Below, in pieces: positions 26,919 through 37,848 of a stretch of DNA of 64,000 bases. A program made the position numbers and the translations under genes. The DNA comes from Thermodesulfobacteriota bacterium (GTDB lineage: Bacteria; Desulfobacterota_D; UBA1144; Nemesobacterales; UBA2774): positions 111,356-175,355 of the forward strand of contig JBFMCV010000003.1 of NCBI GenBank assembly GCA_040754335.1, in the 5' to 3' direction. How positions within the stretch are numbered: the first letter of the stretch is position 1; each line of letters starts with the position of its first letter. Below the pieces are notes generated by a model that did no database searches, was not told where the DNA came from, and worked only from the letters and a program-made list of their open reading frames with translations.

Positions 26919-26966
26919 CGTCGGGTGTAGTAATATGAGTTTCTCTAAGTAATGGGAGGCTCTCAA

Positions 26967-27950
26967 ATGTCTACATTGGTTACAGGGGGGAACGGTCTTG
27001 TAGGCTCTCAGATCGTGCGAAAACTGGTAGAGAGAGGGGACAAGGTAAAGGTACTATTGAGAAAGACCAGTAATACGATAAACATCGACAACTTAAATGT
27101 CGAAAGGGTTTACGGAGACGTGACGGATATAGACTCCGTGAGGAAAGCACTCGAGGGCTGCGACACCCTCTACCACGCGGCGGGCATCGTTTCGTTCAAG
27201 CAGGCCGATTATAATAAGATGGAGGAAATCAACGTAAAAGGGACGCAGAACGTATTCAAGGCCGCGATGGAGGCGGGCGTAAAGAAAGCCGTCTATACGA
27301 GCAGCGTCGCGGCTATAGGATTGAAACCCGGCATGGAGCCCGCAACCGAGGAGACTCCTTTTGACCCGGCAGGCACCGACATACAGTATGTGAAATCGAA
27401 ATACTACGCAGAGCAGGAGGCCCTTAAATTTTTCGGAAAAGGCCTTCCGCTCGTAATCGTGAACCCTTCCATAGTCATAGGAGCGGGAGACGTCTACGTC
27501 TCGACCTCAGGGTTTATCCTCTGGTACTGCAAGAGAAAGCTTCCGGGATATACCGACGGGGGCATAAACGTGGTCGACGCCGAAGACGTAGCTATCGGAC
27601 ATCTGCTCGCGGCCGAGAAGGGCAGATTGGGGGAGCGCTACATACTGAGTAACCGCAATATCACTATAAAAGAGCTCTTCGAGGTCCTGGAGAGAGTGAC
27701 GGGAATCCCGCGGCCGAAAATGAAAATACCCTACCCTCTCGCTTACATGGGCGCCTTCATCGTCGAGCGCATACTCGGCATCTCCGCCCCAAACTACGTC
27801 GCCATGGACATAGACTCCGTAAAGGGATCGAAGCACTTCTGGTATTTCGATAATTCGAAGGCGGTGCGGGAGCTCGGGTTCTCGCCGAGGCCGCTAGAAG
27901 AAACCATTCAAAGCACGGTGAATTGGTTCAGGGGGCACGGCTATCTCTGA
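26967..27950 (+). CDS. NAD-dependent epimerase/dehydratase (HpnA / dihydroflavonol reductase-like)
   Basis: This extended short-chain dehydrogenase has the nucleotide loop TGGNGLVGSQIV at the N-terminus, TSSVAA near residue 112 and the active-site YVKSKYYAEQ (YxxxK) near 145. Start ATG 26967 is preferred over 26952 because GGGAGG lies seven bases before it. Relatives include the hopanoid-linked HpnA and the ketosphingosine/ceramide-type reductases such as Caulobacter CerR, so a lipid substrate is possible. That would fit the alpha-oxoamine synthase operon 3 kb downstream, but aroC lies between them. The substrate is unproven. The length is 327 residues. Confidence 0.85.
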   Translation: MSTLVTGGNGLVGSQIVRKLVERGDKVKVLLRKTSNTINIDNLNVERVYGDVTDIDSVRKALEGCDTLYHAAGIVSFKQADYNKMEEINVKGTQNVFKAAMEAGVKKAVYTSSVAAIGLKPGMEPATEETPFDPAGTDIQYVKSKYYAEQEALKFFGKGLPLVIVNPSIVIGAGDVYVSTSGFILWYCKRKLPGYTDGGINVVDAEDVAIGHLLAAEKGRLGERYILSNRNITIKELFEVLERVTGIPRPKMKIPYPLAYMGAFIVERILGISAPNYVAMDIDSVKGSKHFWYFDNSKAVRELGFSPRPLEETIQSTVNWFRGHGYL

Positions 27951-29669: not shown

Positions 29670-29698
29670 TTGAAACAAAAAACAAATTGCACTAAACT
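29670..29698 (+). promoter_or_regulatory. Sigma70-like promoter driving the riboswitch leader
   Basis: TTGAAA at 29670-29675 and TAAACT at 29693-29698 are separated by 17 bases. Transcription would begin near 29705, about 20 bases before the riboswitch core, which is the position expected for a leader-controlled operon. Confidence 0.6.
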
Positions 29699-29724
29699 TG
29701 CGAAAAGGGGTAGTATCCTTCCGA

Positions 29725-29810
29725 AATGGCAAACTATCCGAAAGGGTAGGACGCAAAGCCGCAAGCCTAAGGGACGTGTCGACACGGCCTATGGCGGTTG
29801 GGTTGCCGAA
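29725..29810 (+). ncRNA. Cyclic di-GMP-I (GEMM-I) riboswitch
   Basis: The aptamer binds cyclic di-GMP. All diagnostic parts are present. The closing stem pairs GGCAA (29728-29732) with TTGCC (29803-29807). A hairpin pairs CTATCC with GGGTAG around the GAAA tetraloop (29740-29743), followed by the conserved ACGCAAAGCC (29751-29760). The tetraloop receptor is formed by CCTAAG (29766-29771) and TATGG (29790-29794). It lies in the leader of the PilZ-oxoamine synthase-GNAT gene, about 115 bases before the start codon. I see no intrinsic terminator in the platform, so control of translation or of an alternative fold is more likely; the on/off sense cannot be read by eye. Confidence 0.94.
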
Positions 29811-29926
29811 GAAAGCATACTTGCAATAATTCTAATATTCGAGGATTATTATGGCAAGGCTATAAAGAATTATATTAACTATGTTAAAGAAAAATGCTAG
29901 AATAATTTCGTAGAGGGGGTTCGAGA

Positions 29927-32698
29927 ATGGGGATAATAATCAGGGAATCGAAGGACCGAAGAAGGCATGAAAGGGTGCCGGTGAATTTTCATGTCTATTC
30001 CAAAAATTCCGGAAAGATGATCGGGCTCGCAAAAGACCTCTCGCCGAAAGGACTATTCATACATACCGAAGACGAGTACGAGCCGGGAACAAAACTCCTT
30101 CTCGAGTGCGACCTGTCGGGCGCGTTCCCGGTCAAAGCCTACTGTGAAGTAAAGAGGTACGAAACGAACGGTACAGGAGAGCACGGTATCGGGGTCGAAT
30201 TCATAAACATATACGAATCCGATAGGGCGAAACTGGAAAGTTATATCGAGAAGAGCAAACATACTCTCAATTCCGACGACTATTATCTCTCCGACTTCAA
30301 CGACATACCCGACGAAGACCTGTTTAAAAAAGCCGAGGTGTTCTGGCAATACGGCGTGGACATGGCGTCTAAGGGGTATATACGGTACAGAAGACCCCTT
30401 GCCTCGCCCTCCGCGCACAGGGTGATCATCGACGACGATTTCACCGGAAAGAAAAAAGAGATGATCATGATGGGCAGCAACAACTACCTCGGCATCACCG
30501 CGCATCCGAGGGTCATGAAAATAGCCAAGGAGAATATCGACAAATACGGTGCGGGCGCGGGTTCGGTGCCGCTTCTGGCAGGGACGTTCGATATACATAG
30601 GCGGCTCGAGATGAAGCTCGCCGAGCTCAAGGGGGCGGAGGACGCGATAATTTTCCCGAGCGGCTACGTAACCAACCTCGGATGCATACAGGCCCTCGTC
30701 AAGAACGAGGACCTCGCAGTCATAGACAGGCTCGCCCACGCGAGCATCATAGACGGCTGCATGCTGTCCTCTGGGACTTTCAGGACGTTCAAGCATTCGG
30801 ACGTCGACAGCCTCGAGAGCGTATTGAAAAGGAATAAGGACAATTTTAAGGGAAAGATCGTTATCGTCGACGGCGTATACAGCATGGACGGGGACATCGC
30901 GCCTCTGCGACAGATAGCCGAAACGGCGCACAGGTACGGCGCCAAGGTCATGGTGGACGAGGCTCACGCCACGGGGGTCATAGGAGAGAGGGGAAAAGGC
31001 ACTCCGAGTCATTTCAAAATGAAGCCGGGCGAGGTGGATATAGTCATGGGGACGCTCAGCAAATCGCTCGGCGGCATCGGAGGCTTCATCGCCTCGACCA
31101 AAGAGGTGGTGACCTATCTCAGATACTACACGAGGTCGTTCTTCTTCTCGTCGAATTTCCCGCCTTCGGTCGCGGCTTCCGTGCTCGCGGCGATAGAAGT
31201 CATGGAATCCGACAAATCTCTCCATGAAAACCTGTGGAGGAACATCAAGCACATGAAGGAGAGCCTTAAATCCATGGGCTTTAACACCGGACAGACCGAG
31301 TCGGCGATCATCCCTGTAATGATCGGAGACGAGCTGACTCAGAAAAAGATGAACAAGAGGTTCCACGAGGAGGGAATATACGTAAACGCCATTCCCCACC
31401 CCGCCGTGCCCAAGGGTCAGGAGAGGTTCAGGTTCAGCGTCATGGCCACGCACACGCGGGAAGACATCGACAAGACGCTCGAAGTGGTCGAGAAGCTGGG
31501 GAGGGAATTCGGAATAATAGGCAGGCCGGTTTCTCCAGGCGCCCCCGAAAGCGAAAAATACTCGGTGAGAGAAATATCCTCCAGGGAAGATATCGAAAAA
31601 TCGGTCAGGTTCTCATGGAAGGTTTACAAGGACTACCCGGCATGGGTGCCGTACTTCCTGATAAAAGACCACGTCAAGCTCATTTCGAACGATTATTTCT
31701 ACTTCAGAAAGGTTTACGGCAAGAGGTTCGTCGTCGAGGAGAACGGGGAGATAGTAGGCACGGTAAGCGCGTTCATTGACCACTACTATAACCGCTATCA
31801 CGATACGAACGCCGGGTTCCTCGGTTTCTTCGAAGCCCTCCCGGATAAGGAAGAGGCGGTCGGGCTTATGCTGGCGAGAGCCGAGGAGTTTCTTGCAAGT
31901 GAAGGGTGCAGGGAGGTGCTCGGACCCGTGAACGGTATCTTCGGGCTTTTCGGCGGGGGGCTGCTCTCGAGCAACTACGGGAAGATACCTTCGTTCCTCC
32001 AGGTCTACACGCAGCCCTACTACCACGAATATTTCACCGGAGCCGGGTTCGGGCCTGTCAAAAAATTGCTCCACTACACGATAGACCTGAAATCCCCGGA
32101 TAACGTCAAGGCGATAATGAAATACTCACGGGAGTTGGCCCTCCCGGATATTAAGATAAGGCAGATGAACAAGTCCGACTGGGAGAACGAGGTCAGGAGC
32201 GTGGTCAGGATATTCAACAATTCTCTCGCCCAGCTCTGGGGAAACGTCCCGTTCGATCCCGATGAATTCATGGAGATCGCGGACGAGTTCAAGAGCCTTA
32301 TCGCTCCCGAATACTGGCTCATAGCGGAGTCGGGAGGGGAAGCGGTGGGCTTCATAGGCGGGTTCCCGCAGTACGCATCGGTGTTCAGGGGCCTCGACGG
32401 GGAACTCAGGCCCCACAAGCTGGTTACGCTGCCTCTCAAGCTGAGAGGAATAAAGGAAGGCGTTTTAATGATCATGGGACTCCTCGACGAGTACAAGGGA
32501 AAGAGGATAGGCTCGGTCCTCCTAAGCAGGGTCTGCGAGGCGATGATCGGGAACGGCTATGAAAAAGTGGCGGGCACGTGGGTCCTCGAGGACAACCTGG
32601 GCTCGCGGCGCATAGTGGAGAGCCTGGGCGGAAAGGTCGACCTCCACTGGGAGATGTATTCGAAAACCCCGGCGATAAGCGAACAGGCAAATGACTGA
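29927..32698 (+). CDS. PilZ - alpha-oxoamine synthase - GNAT fusion protein
   Basis: This 923-residue protein joins three parts. Residues 5-110 form a PilZ domain with both c-di-GMP motifs, RRHER (12-16) and DLSPKG (37-42). Residues 135-535 form a PLP-dependent alpha-oxoamine synthase related to serine palmitoyltransferase, AONS and CqsA/LqsA: MGSNNYLG (182-189), VDEAH (343-347) and the likely Schiff-base Lys379 in GTLSKS. Residues 550-905 form a two-part GNAT-like acyltransferase with FLGFFEA and GPVNGIFGLF, of the kind to which I believe bacterial ceramide synthases belong. It may make an amino-ketone, or acylate it, for a sphingoid-like lipid or signal, under c-di-GMP control. The start has GAGGGGG upstream and follows a c-di-GMP riboswitch. 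The kinase gene overlaps its end by eight bases. Confidence 0.9.
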   Translation: MGIIIRESKDRRRHERVPVNFHVYSKNSGKMIGLAKDLSPKGLFIHTEDEYEPGTKLLLECDLSGAFPVKAYCEVKRYETNGTGEHGIGVEFINIYESDRAKLESYIEKSKHTLNSDDYYLSDFNDIPDEDLFKKAEVFWQYGVDMASKGYIRYRRPLASPSAHRVIIDDDFTGKKKEMIMMGSNNYLGITAHPRVMKIAKENIDKYGAGAGSVPLLAGTFDIHRRLEMKLAELKGAEDAIIFPSGYVTNLGCIQALVKNEDLAVIDRLAHASIIDGCMLSSGTFRTFKHSDVDSLESVLKRNKDNFKGKIVIVDGVYSMDGDIAPLRQIAETAHRYGAKVMVDEAHATGVIGERGKGTPSHFKMKPGEVDIVMGTLSKSLGGIGGFIASTKEVVTYLRYYTRSFFFSSNFPPSVAASVLAAIEVMESDKSLHENLWRNIKHMKESLKSMGFNTGQTESAIIPVMIGDELTQKKMNKRFHEEGIYVNAIPHPAVPKGQERFRFSVMATHTREDIDKTLEVVEKLGREFGIIGRPVSPGAPESEKYSVREISSREDIEKSVRFSWKVYKDYPAWVPYFLIKDHVKLISNDYFYFRKVYGKRFVVEENGEIVGTVSAFIDHYYNRYHDTNAGFLGFFEALPDKEEAVGLMLARAEEFLASEGCREVLGPVNGIFGLFGGGLLSSNYGKIPSFLQVYTQPYYHEYFTGAGFGPVKKLLHYTIDLKSPDNVKAIMKYSRELALPDIKIRQMNKSDWENEVRSVVRIFNNSLAQLWGNVPFDPDEFMEIADEFKSLIAPEYWLIAESGGEAVGFIGGFPQYASVFRGLDGELRPHKLVTLPLKLRGIKEGVLMIMGLLDEYKGKRIGSVLLSRVCEAMIGNGYEKVAGTWVLEDNLGSRRIVESLGGKVDLHWEMYSKTPAISEQAND

Positions 32699-35264
32699 CA
32701 GACACTACTCCATGTCGGAAGGGAACGGAACGAACATCCAGAAATCGGTATTCAGCATAGTTGCGTTCGTTCTGCTGCTCTTCTGCATAGGGAACCTACT
32801 CCTGGGATTGAACAGGGTGAACAAGCCCTACCCGGGATTTTTCTTCTACAGGAACCTCGTCGTAACCGACATATCGCCCAAGACGATCAACGGAGAGACG
32901 CTCAAGAGGTTCAAGGACAAGATCAGGGAAGTAAACGGCATTGCTGTAAGGACGCCCGAGGAAGTCTTCAGCATTACAGACACATACCCTGTAGGCACCG
33001 GCGTCGAATACACGATAGAAAGAAACAGCGGCACGTTCAGGGTCACGATACCGATCGAGAAACTGACGCTCAAGGAAATGCTCCTCATGTTCGGGATCAT
33101 ATACGTGATAGGCGTCGTGTTCCTCATCATCGGGGTCATGGTCCTTCAGATGAAGCCCGGTCTTAAGGCGAGCAAGGCGTTTTTCCTCTTTTGCGCATCT
33201 ATATGCGTCTGGTTCGTCGGGTCTTTCGACGCGCAGGCCGTCTATCTATTCGACCAGCTGAGCTTCTTTGCCTGGATATTCTGCCCGCTGTTCGGAATAT
33301 ACCTGATGTTTATTTTCCCCTCCGACACCAAGTTGAGGGGAATGACCCACAACCTGGTCTCGATACTGTTTCTGTTTATTTCCGCCATGCTCTTCGTGCT
33401 CCAGTTCATCTTCTTCCACAGGTATGAAGTATGGAAATACATCAATACCGCGAGCTGGATCTACGTGGTCCTGAGCACCATGATATTCCCCATCTCCTCG
33501 TTCGTGACCTACATGAATCCTGCGTCTGCGCTGGAGAAGCAGCGAGCGCAGATAATACTGCTCGGCTGCGTTTTCGGCCTGCTCGCCCCGGCTTCGGTCG
33601 TAGCCTGCATCACGGTCTTTAAAATAAGCCTGCCCTACAACCTGATGGCGCTGCCCGTGATAATATTCCCGGTTTCTATCGCCTACGCCATAGTAAAGCA
33701 CAAGCTCTTCGACATTGACGTCATCATCGAAAAGGCCCTCACGTACGGCCTCCTCACGGGAGCCGTTGGCGGAATATTCGCACTCACCGTGCTCGGGTTC
33801 AACGTCGCATTCGCGAAGTACGGCGGCTGGAAGAACCCCGCTTTCTTCGTGATCCTGAGCGGATTCCTCGTCATAGCGCTCAACCCGCTCAAAAACCGTA
33901 TACAGGACCTTGTGGACCTGACGTTTTTCAGGAAGAAATACGACTACAGGGGGACAGTGGAGGAAGTGAGCTACGCCATGACCTCGCTCCTCAGCCTCGA
34001 GAAGATAATCGACAAGATCATCGAAATCGTGGAGAGCACGATGTTCTCGAGCCCGGTTTCGGTATTCATATACAACCAGGACCTCGGCTCTTACGAGCGG
34101 TATTTTAAAGACGGCGAGGTCAGGAGCTCGCCCGACGCGGCGCTCGAAGAAGACAACGTCCTCATTCAGCAGCTCAATTTCCACGGGAGCGAGATATTCA
34201 AGGAAGACCTCATAGCGGACGAGAGGTACATTCACAACTCTCAAAAGCTAATGCTCGAGTTCGAGAGGTTCAGCGCGTCGCTCATAATTCCGCTCTTTTT
34301 CAAAAAGCAGCTCATCGGGTTCATAGCGCTCGGGGAGAAGAAGTCGGGGCTTTCGTATACCTCGCGCGACGTGAAGCTGCTCAAGCTGCTCGCTAACCAG
34401 AGCGCGATAGCGATCGAGAACGCGCTTGCTTTCAAGCTCGTCGAGGACTACGCGAAGAAGCTCGAAAAAACGAACAAGGAGCTCAAGGACACCCAGGCGC
34501 AGCTCGTGCACGCCGAAAAGATGTCCGCGATCGGGCAGCTCGCTGCGGGTGTCGCCCACGAGATAAGGAACCCGCTCAACATCATCGAAGGCGCAAGGTA
34601 CTACATATCCACATATATGATGGACAAGGAAAACACGGAGGTCGTCGGAGAATATCTCGATTATATAAAGCACGAGATCGACAGGACGAACCGACTGATA
34701 GACAGCCTGCTCAAGTTCTCGAAAGCCGAGCCGCCGTATTTCGAGAGGGTGAACATAAACAGCGTGATCGAGAACGTAGTCATCCTCGTACGGAAGCAGC
34801 TCTCTGACAACAGGATAAATCTCACGCTCAAGCTCGACGGGAACCTGCCGCAGATAATGGCCGATCCGAACCAGCTCTGGCAGGTATTCATCAATATCAT
34901 ATTGAATGCCGTTCAGGCGATGCCGAAGGGCGGGGATTTCACTATTGAGACCACGACCAGCTGGGACGAATTCGCGAGCGGGAACTCGAACCACGTCTAC
35001 ATACACTTCAGGGACACGGGCGTGGGGATAGACAGGGAAGACATAACGAAGATATTCGACCCGTTCTTCACGAAAAAGGATATGGGGACCGGGCTCGGTC
35101 TCTCGATAGCGTATAAGATAATCGAAAAGCACAAAGGCAGGATAATAGTGGAAAGCGAAAAGGGCGTCGGTACGACGTTCACGATTGAACTTCCATCAAA
35201 TAACCATAATATTACTGCGGGAGAGGCAGATGAACAACTCGAAGAAACGGGTGCTGGTAGTTGA
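32691..35264 (+). CDS. Membrane sensor histidine kinase with PDZ-like and GAF domains
   Basis: The 857-residue kinase begins with a membrane helix (17-40). A PDZ-like periplasmic segment follows (about 58-123, VNGIAVRTPEEVF), then about seven more helices (131-400) and a cytoplasmic GAF domain (about 420-585). The transmitter has phospho-acceptor His623 in VAHEIRNPLN and an ATPase domain (DTGVGID, MGTGLGLS). The start overlaps the stop of the fusion gene (ATGACTGA), so the two are translationally coupled; Met8 is an alternative start. The cue is unknown, perhaps a lipid or ketone made by the upstream enzyme. The REC domain of the next protein is the likely partner. Confidence 0.92.
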   Translation: MTDRHYSMSEGNGTNIQKSVFSIVAFVLLLFCIGNLLLGLNRVNKPYPGFFFYRNLVVTDISPKTINGETLKRFKDKIREVNGIAVRTPEEVFSITDTYPVGTGVEYTIERNSGTFRVTIPIEKLTLKEMLLMFGIIYVIGVVFLIIGVMVLQMKPGLKASKAFFLFCASICVWFVGSFDAQAVYLFDQLSFFAWIFCPLFGIYLMFIFPSDTKLRGMTHNLVSILFLFISAMLFVLQFIFFHRYEVWKYINTASWIYVVLSTMIFPISSFVTYMNPASALEKQRAQIILLGCVFGLLAPASVVACITVFKISLPYNLMALPVIIFPVSIAYAIVKHKLFDIDVIIEKALTYGLLTGAVGGIFALTVLGFNVAFAKYGGWKNPAFFVILSGFLVIALNPLKNRIQDLVDLTFFRKKYDYRGTVEEVSYAMTSLLSLEKIIDKIIEIVESTMFSSPVSVFIYNQDLGSYERYFKDGEVRSSPDAALEEDNVLIQQLNFHGSEIFKEDLIADERYIHNSQKLMLEFERFSASLIIPLFFKKQLIGFIALGEKKSGLSYTSRDVKLLKLLANQSAIAIENALAFKLVEDYAKKLEKTNKELKDTQAQLVHAEKMSAIGQLAAGVAHEIRNPLNIIEGARYYISTYMMDKENTEVVGEYLDYIKHEIDRTNRLIDSLLKFSKAEPPYFERVNINSVIENVVILVRKQLSDNRINLTLKLDGNLPQIMADPNQLWQVFINIILNAVQAMPKGGDFTIETTTSWDEFASGNSNHVYIHFRDTGVGIDREDITKIFDPFFTKKDMGTGLGLSIAYKIIEKHKGRIIVESEKGVGTTFTIELPSNNHNITAGEADEQLEETGAGS

Positions 35265-37146
35265 CGACGAGCAGCTCATATTAAAGATCATATCCGACAT
35301 ACTGACCAAGGAAGGTTACGAAGTCGTAATCGCCAACAACTGCGAGAAGGCGGCCGATTACCTGAGGTCATCGAACTTTAACGTCGTGCTCTCGGACATA
35401 AAAATGCCAGTTAAGAGCGGCATCGACCTCCTCGAGGAAATCAAGAAGAAAGACCCGAACATTCCGGTAATACTGATGACGGGATTCGCCTCGCTTGAAA
35501 CAGCCGTAGAGGCGGTCCAGAACGGAGCCTTCGACTACCTGATCAAGCCGCTCGATTACGGGAAGCTGAGGAGCGTCATCGAGCACGCCGCCGACAGGTA
35601 CGAGCTCTACAGGGAGAACACCCGTCTCCTCAGCGATCTCAAGGAGCTGAACACCAATCTCGAACTGAAGGTCCAGGAAAGGAACAGACAGCTCGAGAAC
35701 ACGCTCAACAGCACGATCGAGAGCATCATAACGACCGACAGGGACCTCGTCATAGAAACCACGAACCCGAAGACCTCCGAGATATTCGGCAGGAACTGTG
35801 TGGGTGAAAAACTGAGCTCGTTATTCCAGGGAATCAATTTCGACACCATAGTACCCAAAATATTGAGCGACCCGGCGTACTCGACGAAACACGAAGTGAG
35901 ACACGACAGCAAGTTCCTCGAAGTGACGCTCTCGCCGCTTATAGACTTCGAGACTAGGGAGATTTTCGGCGTGATAGCAGCGACTGAGGATATAACCGAG
36001 AAGAAGAAGCTCGAAGCGCAGCTCATACACTCGGCCAAGATGTCGGGCGTGGGGCAGCTCGCGGCCGGGGTCGCGCACGAATTCAACAACATCCTCTCGG
36101 GAATCATAGGGTACACGAGCCTCGCGCTCACGCGGCAGGACCTCGACAGCGTCAGGAAAGACCTCAAGGTCATAGAGAAAGCCTCCGACAGGGCCGTCGA
36201 GATAGTGAACAAGCTCCTCTCCTTCTCGAGACAGAAGGGAGAGAAGTTCCAGGTCGCCCAGATAGAGAGCATCATAGACGACGCGCTGGGGCTCGTGGAG
36301 CACACGTTCGAGACGGAAGGAATAAGGATACTGAGGAGCTACGAGAAGGTCCCGGCCATAAGGATGAACCTGGGAGAGATACAGCAGGTGTTCCTCAACC
36401 TCGCCATAAACTCGAAACACGCCATGCCCAATGGCGGCGCTATAGCCATAAGCACGAAGCTCGCAGGGAATTACGTTAGGATAGACTTTTCGGATACGGG
36501 CGTTGGCATTCCGCCCGAGAACCTGCCCAGGATATTCGAGCCCTTCTTCACCACGAAGCTGAGCGAAGGCGCAAAAACGGGAACCGGCCTCGGCCTCTCC
36601 GTCATATACGCGATCATCGAGAGGCACGGCGGGCGGATCGAAGTCTCGAGCGAGGTCAACAAAGGGACTACCTTCACGATCCACCTCCCGAATATCCAGA
36701 CCGTCGCGAAAGCCCCGGAACCGGAGCAGGCGAAGAAGAGCCAGAACGGCAAGGTAATCGAGCTCAGGAGAAAGGGGAACGTGCTGATAATCGACGACGA
36801 GGAGTTCATAAGGGACATAGTGAGCGAATGCCTTTCGAGCACCGGGCACAACGTAATGACCGCCGAGAGCGCGGAGGAAGCGATAGAGCTTATAAAAAAG
36901 AACCATTTCGACATCACGTTCCTCGACTTCTCCCTGCCTAATAAAAACGGCCTCGATCTTCTGAGAGAGATAAAGCTCATCGACCCCAGCTCGACCGTGG
37001 TCATCATAAGCTCAAGGCCCGGAGAGCAGCTCCCGGACGAGCTCTCGGACGAAGGCGCTTACAACATCATAAAGAAACCTTTCTCCGTGGACCAGATACA
37101 AAACGCAGTATCCAGGGTGCTTGGAGCGGAGGCCGTGAGCAGATAA
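35230..37146 (+). CDS. Hybrid regulator REC-PAS-HisKA-HATPase-REC
   Basis: The start is ATG 35230, preceded by GGGAGAGG, which overlaps the previous gene by 35 bases; the longer upstream frame is not used. The 638 residues comprise a first receiver (acceptor Asp56, Lys106), a coiled linker (about 125-160), a PAS domain (about 162-255), a kinase core with His283 in VAHEFNNILSG, an ATPase domain (DTGVGIPPEN, GTGLGLS), and a second receiver with Asp566. No DNA-binding output domain exists, so the signal probably passes on to another regulator or stays in a relay with the upstream kinase. Confidence 0.92.
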   Translation: MNNSKKRVLVVDDEQLILKIISDILTKEGYEVVIANNCEKAADYLRSSNFNVVLSDIKMPVKSGIDLLEEIKKKDPNIPVILMTGFASLETAVEAVQNGAFDYLIKPLDYGKLRSVIEHAADRYELYRENTRLLSDLKELNTNLELKVQERNRQLENTLNSTIESIITTDRDLVIETTNPKTSEIFGRNCVGEKLSSLFQGINFDTIVPKILSDPAYSTKHEVRHDSKFLEVTLSPLIDFETREIFGVIAATEDITEKKKLEAQLIHSAKMSGVGQLAAGVAHEFNNILSGIIGYTSLALTRQDLDSVRKDLKVIEKASDRAVEIVNKLLSFSRQKGEKFQVAQIESIIDDALGLVEHTFETEGIRILRSYEKVPAIRMNLGEIQQVFLNLAINSKHAMPNGGAIAISTKLAGNYVRIDFSDTGVGIPPENLPRIFEPFFTTKLSEGAKTGTGLGLSVIYAIIERHGGRIEVSSEVNKGTTFTIHLPNIQTVAKAPEPEQAKKSQNGKVIELRRKGNVLIIDDEEFIRDIVSECLSSTGHNVMTAESAEEAIELIKKNHFDITFLDFSLPNKNGLDLLREIKLIDPSSTVVIISSRPGEQLPDELSDEGAYNIIKKPFSVDQIQNAVSRVLGAEAVSR

Positions 37147-37160
37147 AATAACACCCGGAC

Positions 37161-37523
37161 ATGGAAGAGCTTTCCACCCACAGCTTCAGAATCTTCGTCA
37201 ACGAAAAAGAGATTTATTCGGGCAGCCTCGAGGAAGTGCCGGAAAGGTTCAGGGCGCGCATGATACGCGACCTTGCCGAGTGGGCGGACTCTCTCGGCAA
37301 GAGGGGCCTCAACGAGCTCATATACTCCCATCTCGCCTGGTATGAAGAGAAGGGCATGCACTGTGCGGAATGCGGGACTTGGGACACGGGAGGGGGCTCG
37401 GGGGAATGTGCGGAATGCGGGAGCAAGCTCGGGGAGCGGTACATATACGAGCGGGACAAAGGGCTCGATATGATCATTACGTGCGTGGGAATGATATCGA
37501 AAGTGCAGGTTTCAAAAATATAA
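37161..37523 (+). CDS. Small protein with zinc-ribbon-like CxxC pair, 120 aa
   Basis: The N-terminal half is helical and charged. The C-terminal half has two CAEC pairs (Cys68/71 and Cys83/86) separated by a Gly-rich loop, which suggests a zinc-binding knuckle. I do not recognise the family. It follows the hybrid kinase by 14 bases on the same strand and may belong to the same transcript. Function unknown. Confidence 0.7.
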   Translation: MEELSTHSFRIFVNEKEIYSGSLEEVPERFRARMIRDLAEWADSLGKRGLNELIYSHLAWYEEKGMHCAECGTWDTGGGSGECAECGSKLGERYIYERDKGLDMIITCVGMISKVQVSKI

Positions 37524-37542: not shown

Positions 37543-37848
37543 ATGAAGCTAACAGTCAAGGGTCAGATATTTCCAAAGGTCTGGGAGATCGCGGAGAGCG
37601 TAAGGAAGCTGAGGGACGACAGGAAGCCCGTGAACATCGGAGCGGGCACGGTGGGCTTTCCGGTCTACGAAGTGGATCTGCCGGATGACACGAGAAAGGA
37701 GGGTCTTTATTTCGTGACTCCACAGGGGATAAAGCTCTATTTTTACCCGGGCGACCAGTACCAGATAGCATATCTGATCTCGGAGATAGACACCGACCCG
37801 CTGAGGGAGAAGCATTTTAAAGAGGCGGCAAAGAACGCACTGTCTTGA
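37543..37848 (+). CDS. Uncharacterised small protein, 101 aa
   Basis: No family is recognised. The product is soluble, mixed alpha/beta, with short beta strands (VNIGAGTVGFPVYEVDL, GLYFVTPQGIKLYFY) and a C-terminal helix. GAGAGGTCGGAG precedes the ATG. It lies 19 bases after the CxxC-pair gene, in the same direction, so the two may be a pair. Confidence 0.6.
   Translation: MKLTVKGQIFPKVWEIAESVRKLRDDRKPVNIGAGTVGFPVYEVDLPDDTRKEGLYFVTPQGIKLYFYPGDQYQIAYLISEIDTDPLREKHFKEAAKNALS

Follow-up and report, generated by a model that had tools for sequence, protein, structure and literature searches.

Comparing a 64-kb stretch of DNA (the window) with related genomes, we found that it carries a cassette composed of a c-di-GMP-I (GEMM-I) riboswitch, a gene encoding a PilZ - α-oxoamine synthase (AOS) - acyltransferase fusion and the genes of two histidine kinases, HK1 and HK2, and that this cassette has been gained and lost as a block. 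The parts, their order, the conservation of their motifs and the gain and loss as a block are established from sequence. The individual parts are of known kinds and the assembly as a whole is without a description in the literature searched, in keeping with the initial annotation, which had known of no described system combining them. Searches for PilZ-AOS proteins, for AOS-GNAT fusions and for c-di-GMP together with sphingolipid synthesis returned nothing relevant in the literature searched, of which few subscription journals were part. The observation made in that annotation is confirmed and is firmer than claimed, because natural empty sites delimit the unit. The cassette is best read as one in which a single protein, gated by c-di-GMP, makes an N-acyl aminoketone (ceramide-like) lipid and is accompanied by a dedicated kinase relay, a reading to which we give an even chance of being right.

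The host of the window is a Candidatus Dadabacteria bacterium with a genome of 3.26 Mb (98% complete), and its closest relatives in the whole collection are Candidatus Dadabacteria MAGs; because the scan of that collection required exact peptides, it recovered only four close relatives, and the cassette may occur outside Dadabacteria as well. The comparison within the phylum covered 58 genomes, the window's own genome counted in, and the cassette was present in 18 of them. Conservation of the gene order in relatives had been named at the outset as a test, and the order PilZ-AOS(-acyltransferase) - HK1 - HK2 was indeed kept, being repeated in four Dadabacteria families, indicating that the arrangement goes beyond chance. 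All cassette features given below with window coordinates are on the + strand.

The riboswitch aptamer (29718-29810) matched RF01051 over the full model with 77.4 bits (E 1.8e-13; gathering score 35), as initially proposed for the DNA ahead of the enzyme gene, and was the sole Rfam match within the window. Its 3' end lies 116 nt from the 923-codon gene, and 19 nt ahead of it ends a promoter-like site (TTGAAA-17-TAAACT, 29670-29698) detected by consensus scan only, with 9 of 12 positions matching. The leader between aptamer and start codon (29811-29926), the presumed expression platform, could be aligned in six genomes; a terminator scan revealed no intrinsic terminator in it, and the six-genome alignment revealed no convincing consensus fold near the ribosome site. 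The aptamer column that separates c-di-GMP from cGAMP binders, which we take to be equivalent to Vc2 G20, carries G in the window and in 8 of the 9 operon aptamers and T in G002, and the G at this column argues for c-di-GMP over cGAMP as the ligand. An aptamer lies within the operon in 9 of the 14 readable relatives. It is 5' of the synthase in G004 and in G000, G029, G031, G039, G040 and G041, the latter six being all the genomes of the window's own family whose upstream DNA is readable; in G005 it lies between the synthase and HK1 (L043:5874-5960) and in G002 between the synthase and a methyltransferase gene (L045:11284-11370), in neither case at the 5' end of the operon. The riboswitch was not found in G003, G007, G009, G010 and G014 even at a weak threshold (E 0.3). 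By a rough estimate, the probability of encountering a right-strand aptamer by chance within 1.5 kb is 0.0003-0.003 for each genome, although the genomes are related.

The gene downstream of the leader (29927-32698) encodes a fusion of 923 aa in which Pfam places PilZ at residues 10-108, Aminotran_1_2 at residues 178-520 (3.2e-57) and Acetyltransf_1 at residues 780-901 (2.3e-12). The PilZ domain (29954-30250; PF07238, E 3.5e-14) carries the motifs R12xxxR16 and D37xS39xxG42, so the description of it as intact was correct, and a PilZ domain is present in every cassette member with a readable N terminus. Among 14 sequences with a mean pairwise identity of 40%, the c-di-GMP motifs (RxxxR, [DN]xSxxG) are invariant; seven positions are the same in all (R11, R12, R16, S39, G42, K56 and F92), four of which are motif residues, and position 37 is Asp or Asn throughout. 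Such invariance at 40% identity is the pattern that selection for ligand binding would leave. The window's own genome encodes six GGDEF domains and two PilZ domains, that of the cassette being the stronger match of the two; a search of plasmids with the PilZ domain as query gave no match. We infer both the binding of c-di-GMP and the sign of regulation. The proposal that c-di-GMP acts at two levels is supported in so far as the aptamer is 5' in the six same-family genomes and the PilZ motifs are kept in 14/14 sequences, but the riboswitch is less constant (9/14, and behind the enzyme gene in two). Given that the riboswitch is patchier than PilZ, two-level control would belong to the window's family and a few others and not to the whole system.

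HK1 (32691-35264), whose gene shares an overlap of 8 nt with that of the enzyme, is composed, according to Pfam, hydropathy and catalytic boxes, of a TM helix, a PDZ-like domain, a multi-TM region, GAF, HisKA and HATPase. The PDZ-like domain was detected in relatives (E 2e-5), and the multi-TM region showed weak HisKA_7TM similarity in one relative. HK2 (35230-37146) is a REC-PAS-HisKA-HATPase-REC hybrid kinase. Its reading frame is open from 35185; because several relatives begin at a matching methionine, the start is very probably ATG 35230 and not TTG 35185, and the overlap between HK1 and HK2 is then 35 nt. Where both kinase genes had been described as overlapping the enzyme gene, HK1 alone does so and HK2 overlaps HK1 instead. 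Both proteins carry H, N, G1 and G2 boxes, and domain content together with overlap suggests a phosphorelay from HK1 to HK2. The sensor region of HK1 was found in all 18 genomes with a PilZ-AOS or acyltransferase domain and in 2 of the 40 others, namely in G001 with 28% identity and in G013 as a fragment with 38% identity located immediately behind aroC at a contig end.

The cassette of relatives is mostly flanked by aroC on one side and, on the other, by the small genes that in the window start at 37161 and 37543. In the cassette-less G015 and G034, aroC directly adjoins the homologues of these two, indicating that the cassette was gained and lost en bloc; in G003 and G007, aroC and the cassette are on separate contigs. 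The unit is riboswitch, synthase, HK1 and HK2, and the flanking genes are background. The small genes 37161-37523 and 37543-37848 were considered as cassette members and rejected, since they follow aroC with or without the cassette. Both encode small conserved proteins, and that of the former has weak zinc-ribbon-like matches in one relative. An epimerase-like gene (26952-27950), HpnA-like and adjoining aroC whether or not the cassette is there, was likewise rejected as a missing ketoreductase; the SDR of a Streptomyces AOS-acyltransferase cluster found a better match elsewhere in the window's own genome than in this gene. No dedicated ketoreductase belonging to the window cassette was found.

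Six cassette-bearing genomes (G002, G003, G005, G009, G010 and G014) retain PilZ-AOS and both kinases, and no homologue of the acyltransferase domain was found genome-wide in them, indicating that N-acylation is not part of the constant core. Where the fused acyltransferase is missing, an SDR lies between the synthase and HK1 in G003 (L044:12654-13673), and a methyltransferase does so in G010 and in G002 (L045:11399-12175). In the PilZ-AOS of G002 (L045:9400-11052), His replaces the PLP lysine (GTLSHALGG), and this protein is possibly a pseudoenzyme with a decaying riboswitch. The fused AOS-acyltransferase members did not form one clade in a maximum-likelihood (ML) tree with few references, which makes one early fusion, with the domain lost later on in several lineages, the simpler reading.

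This variation bears on an alternative in which the cassette is a private signalling system, the AOS making a diffusible or membrane aminoketone or ketone signal that is tailored in a lineage-specific way by acyltransferase, SDR or methyltransferase and is received by an HK1/HK2 relay, similar to CqsA/CqsS in working and not in family. The constant core consists of PilZ-AOS, HK1 and HK2, the tailoring partner varies (fused acyltransferase; SDR in G003; methyltransferase in G002 and G010) and synthase and kinase are gained and lost together, so that this alternative keeps its weight. It is opposed by the score of the AOS against the α-hydroxyketone synthase family NF005526 (208.8 bits; cut-off 428), by the N-terminus of HK1, which gave no match to any named quorum-sensor family, and by the cassette itself, which encodes no DNA-binding output or response regulator; on balance we consider it somewhat unlikely. 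CqsA/CqsS and LqsA/LqsS have in common with the cassette that the gene of a membrane histidine kinase adjoins that of an AOS. In sensors of the CqsS/LqsS type, a multi-TM sensor is joined directly to the kinase core, whereas in HK1 a TM helix, the PDZ-like domain, further TM helices and GAF precede it; moreover, the cassette adds PilZ, acyltransferase and riboswitch. Membership of the CqsA/CqsS and LqsA/LqsS kind, which the layout had been said in the initial annotation to resemble, is accordingly not supported, as the AOS is far under the family cut-off and the sensor architecture is another one.

Turning to the enzyme, residues 545-923 (31559-32695) were found to make up an acyltransferase domain of the YghO/CC_1154 (bacterial ceramide synthase) family. 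They align with YghO-family proteins over nearly the full length with 22-29% identity (E down to 4e-52), and for YghO the identity is 25% (residues 3-369 of 379; E 8e-39); with E. coli YghO as query, this domain was the only match in the window's own genome (E 8e-36). The fusion of an AOS with a GNAT-like domain is thus present as first described, and its second partner goes beyond one generic GNAT domain, being a full-length YghO-family domain. yghO and CC_1154 are listed as N-acyltransferases needed for dihydroceramide (PMC9386255), and CC_1154 is described as a dihydroceramide N-acyltransferase also in PMC11324152; for the window protein this function is putative, assigned by homology. AlphaFold2 models, with 4-5 close sequences aligned, were too poor for searching (mean pLDDT 37 for the fusion and 45 for the HK1 sensor region). 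YghO-family genes occur on plasmids of E. coli and Pseudomonas together with AOS, ACP, epimerase and fatty acyl-AMP ligase. Plasmids of Rubrobacter (L054), Aureispira (L055) and Streptomyces (L056) carry neighbouring AOS, YghO-family acyltransferase and SDR genes, clusters that are candidate ceramide-type pathways.

The AOS domain (residues 145-531; 30359-31519), identified by PF00155, NCBIfam and PDB alignments, contains the PLP lysine K379 as well as H271, D344, H347 and R502. It scores below the curated thresholds for AOS families, with KBL/BioF-like and SPT-like scores about equal; against the three NCBIfam models of serine palmitoyltransferase (SPT) it reached 384.7, 350.6 and 296.8 bits, all below the cut-offs of 640, 500 and 670. 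PDB alignments returned ThAOS, SPT and KBL (glycine C-acetyltransferase). In a small ML tree with few reference sequences, the AOS was joined with PigH-type AOS (UFBoot 100) and grouped with KBL, Bacillus-type BioF and PigH (UFBoot 96), outside the clade of E. coli and Bacteroidota SPTs. The position governing amino-acid selectivity is V214 in the window and Val, Ile or Ala among relatives; as read from the PDB alignment it is equivalent to V79 of ThAOS and Ser81 of Sphingobacterium SPT, and it is Val also in KBL and Ser in every SPT examined. In Sphingobacterium SPT, Ser81 makes a water-mediated contact with the substrate carboxylate (PMC10196870). Given the Val as in KBL where SPTs have Ser, glycine or alanine would be at least as likely a substrate as serine, and the backbone of the product may be of the 1-deoxy type. 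KBL and the promiscuous ThAOS (PDB 7POA), among the best solved-structure matches and alike in their Val, differ from the cassette protein in having no regulatory or acyltransferase domains, KBL being paired with threonine dehydrogenase.

These data also weigh on the possibility of a true sphingolipid system, in which the AOS would be a diverged SPT and the fusion would make N-acyl-3-ketosphinganine from serine. The score of Sphingobacterium SPT is about that of KBL-type enzymes, the AOS has SPT-like stretches such as RFSVMATHT and is fused to a domain of the ceramide synthase family, and ThAOS takes serine despite its Val at the same position (PMC11906848); but the NCBIfam cut-offs, the place in the tree and V214, where all SPTs examined have the carboxylate-contacting Ser, are all contrary to SPT identity, leaving this possibility decidedly unlikely. 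The idea of a ceramide pathway condensed into one protein therefore is supported in its ceramide-type acyltransferase fused to an AOS and unsupported in the identity of the AOS as SPT. That PilZ-AOS acts mainly as a c-di-GMP- and ligand-responsive regulator or kinase scaffold, with catalysis secondary or lost, is highly improbable, for although PilZ-AOS is always accompanied by kinases and G002 retains them with His in place of the lysine, 14 of 15 AOS sequences keep the PLP lysine and all 15 keep the remaining catalytic residues, the mean identity of the AOS being 63%.

According to the preferred reading, the ceramide-like lipid synthase, the PLP-dependent AOS domain would condense an acyl thioester with a small amino acid, which is probably glycine, alanine or serine, and the ceramide-synthase-type C-terminal domain would N-acylate the resulting aminoketone to a 3-keto-ceramide-like membrane lipid on the same polypeptide. 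c-di-GMP would set the synthesis of the whole operon through the leader RNA; through the N-terminal PilZ domain it would set how active the enzyme is or how it is placed at the membrane. The membrane kinase HK1, with its PDZ-like outer domain, would form together with the hybrid kinase HK2 a phosphorelay that is made in step with the enzyme and reads its product or the state of the envelope; substrates, product, kinase ligand and kinase output are what we infer here. We counted against this reading the acyltransferase-less cassettes, the loss of the lysine in G002, the absence of the riboswitch in five relatives, the position of the AOS outside the SPT clade, the Val at the selectivity position and the lack of a cassette ketoreductase; no description of the lipid composition of these bacteria was found in the literature searched. 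A still more specific proposal, namely a circuit, gained and lost en bloc, that leads from c-di-GMP, controlling both RNA and protein, over a non-serine ceramide-like lipid or a lineage-tailored form of it to a PDZ-type membrane kinase relay with this lipid as its ligand, is unlikely to be right as a whole.

The ceramide cluster of Caulobacter and E. coli B (spt, acpR, cerR/epi, aasR, bcerS/aca/yghO) is similar to the cassette in its AOS chemistry and its YghO/CC_1154-family N-acyltransferase. Unlike that cluster, the cassette has both enzymes in one polypeptide with an N-terminal PilZ, lacks genes for ACP, acyl-ACP synthetase and CerR, has an AOS outside the SPT clade and adds riboswitch and kinases. 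The adjacent AOS and YghO-family genes of Rubrobacter, Streptomyces and Aureispira are the closest unfused arrangement found; they differ in being separate genes, in their SDR, in the SPT-type Ser of the AOS and in having no PilZ and no adjacent kinase annotated. A biosynthetic enzyme gated by a second messenger through a fused PilZ is known in the cellulose synthase BcsA, which makes a polysaccharide, whereas an aminoketone or lipid would be made here from a transcript that also bears a c-di-GMP riboswitch. If the enzyme binds c-di-GMP, the main lifestyle second messenger would be tied to the production of a ceramide-like membrane lipid, for which no precedent was found in the literature searched, and the cassette would show clearly how a single second messenger can act both on a transcript and on the enzyme encoded by it. 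Because the cassette includes no reductase, a natural one-chain AOS-ceramide synthase would help to test in which order the steps of bacterial ceramide synthesis occur; this order is disputed, N-acylation having been placed before reduction (PMC11087976). Gain and loss as a block in Dadabacteria provides a clean comparison set.

The window's own genome contains nine or ten GEMM-I aptamers, nine of them listed at or above the curated score. One of these (C4:264275-264360, L100) lies ahead of a type IV pilus operon that we judged by inspection of its genes to be pilMNOPQ-like, which suggests a surface-life regulon. At L103:6690-10883 (C9), another lies ahead of the gene for a tetratricopeptide-repeat protein of 1397 aa.
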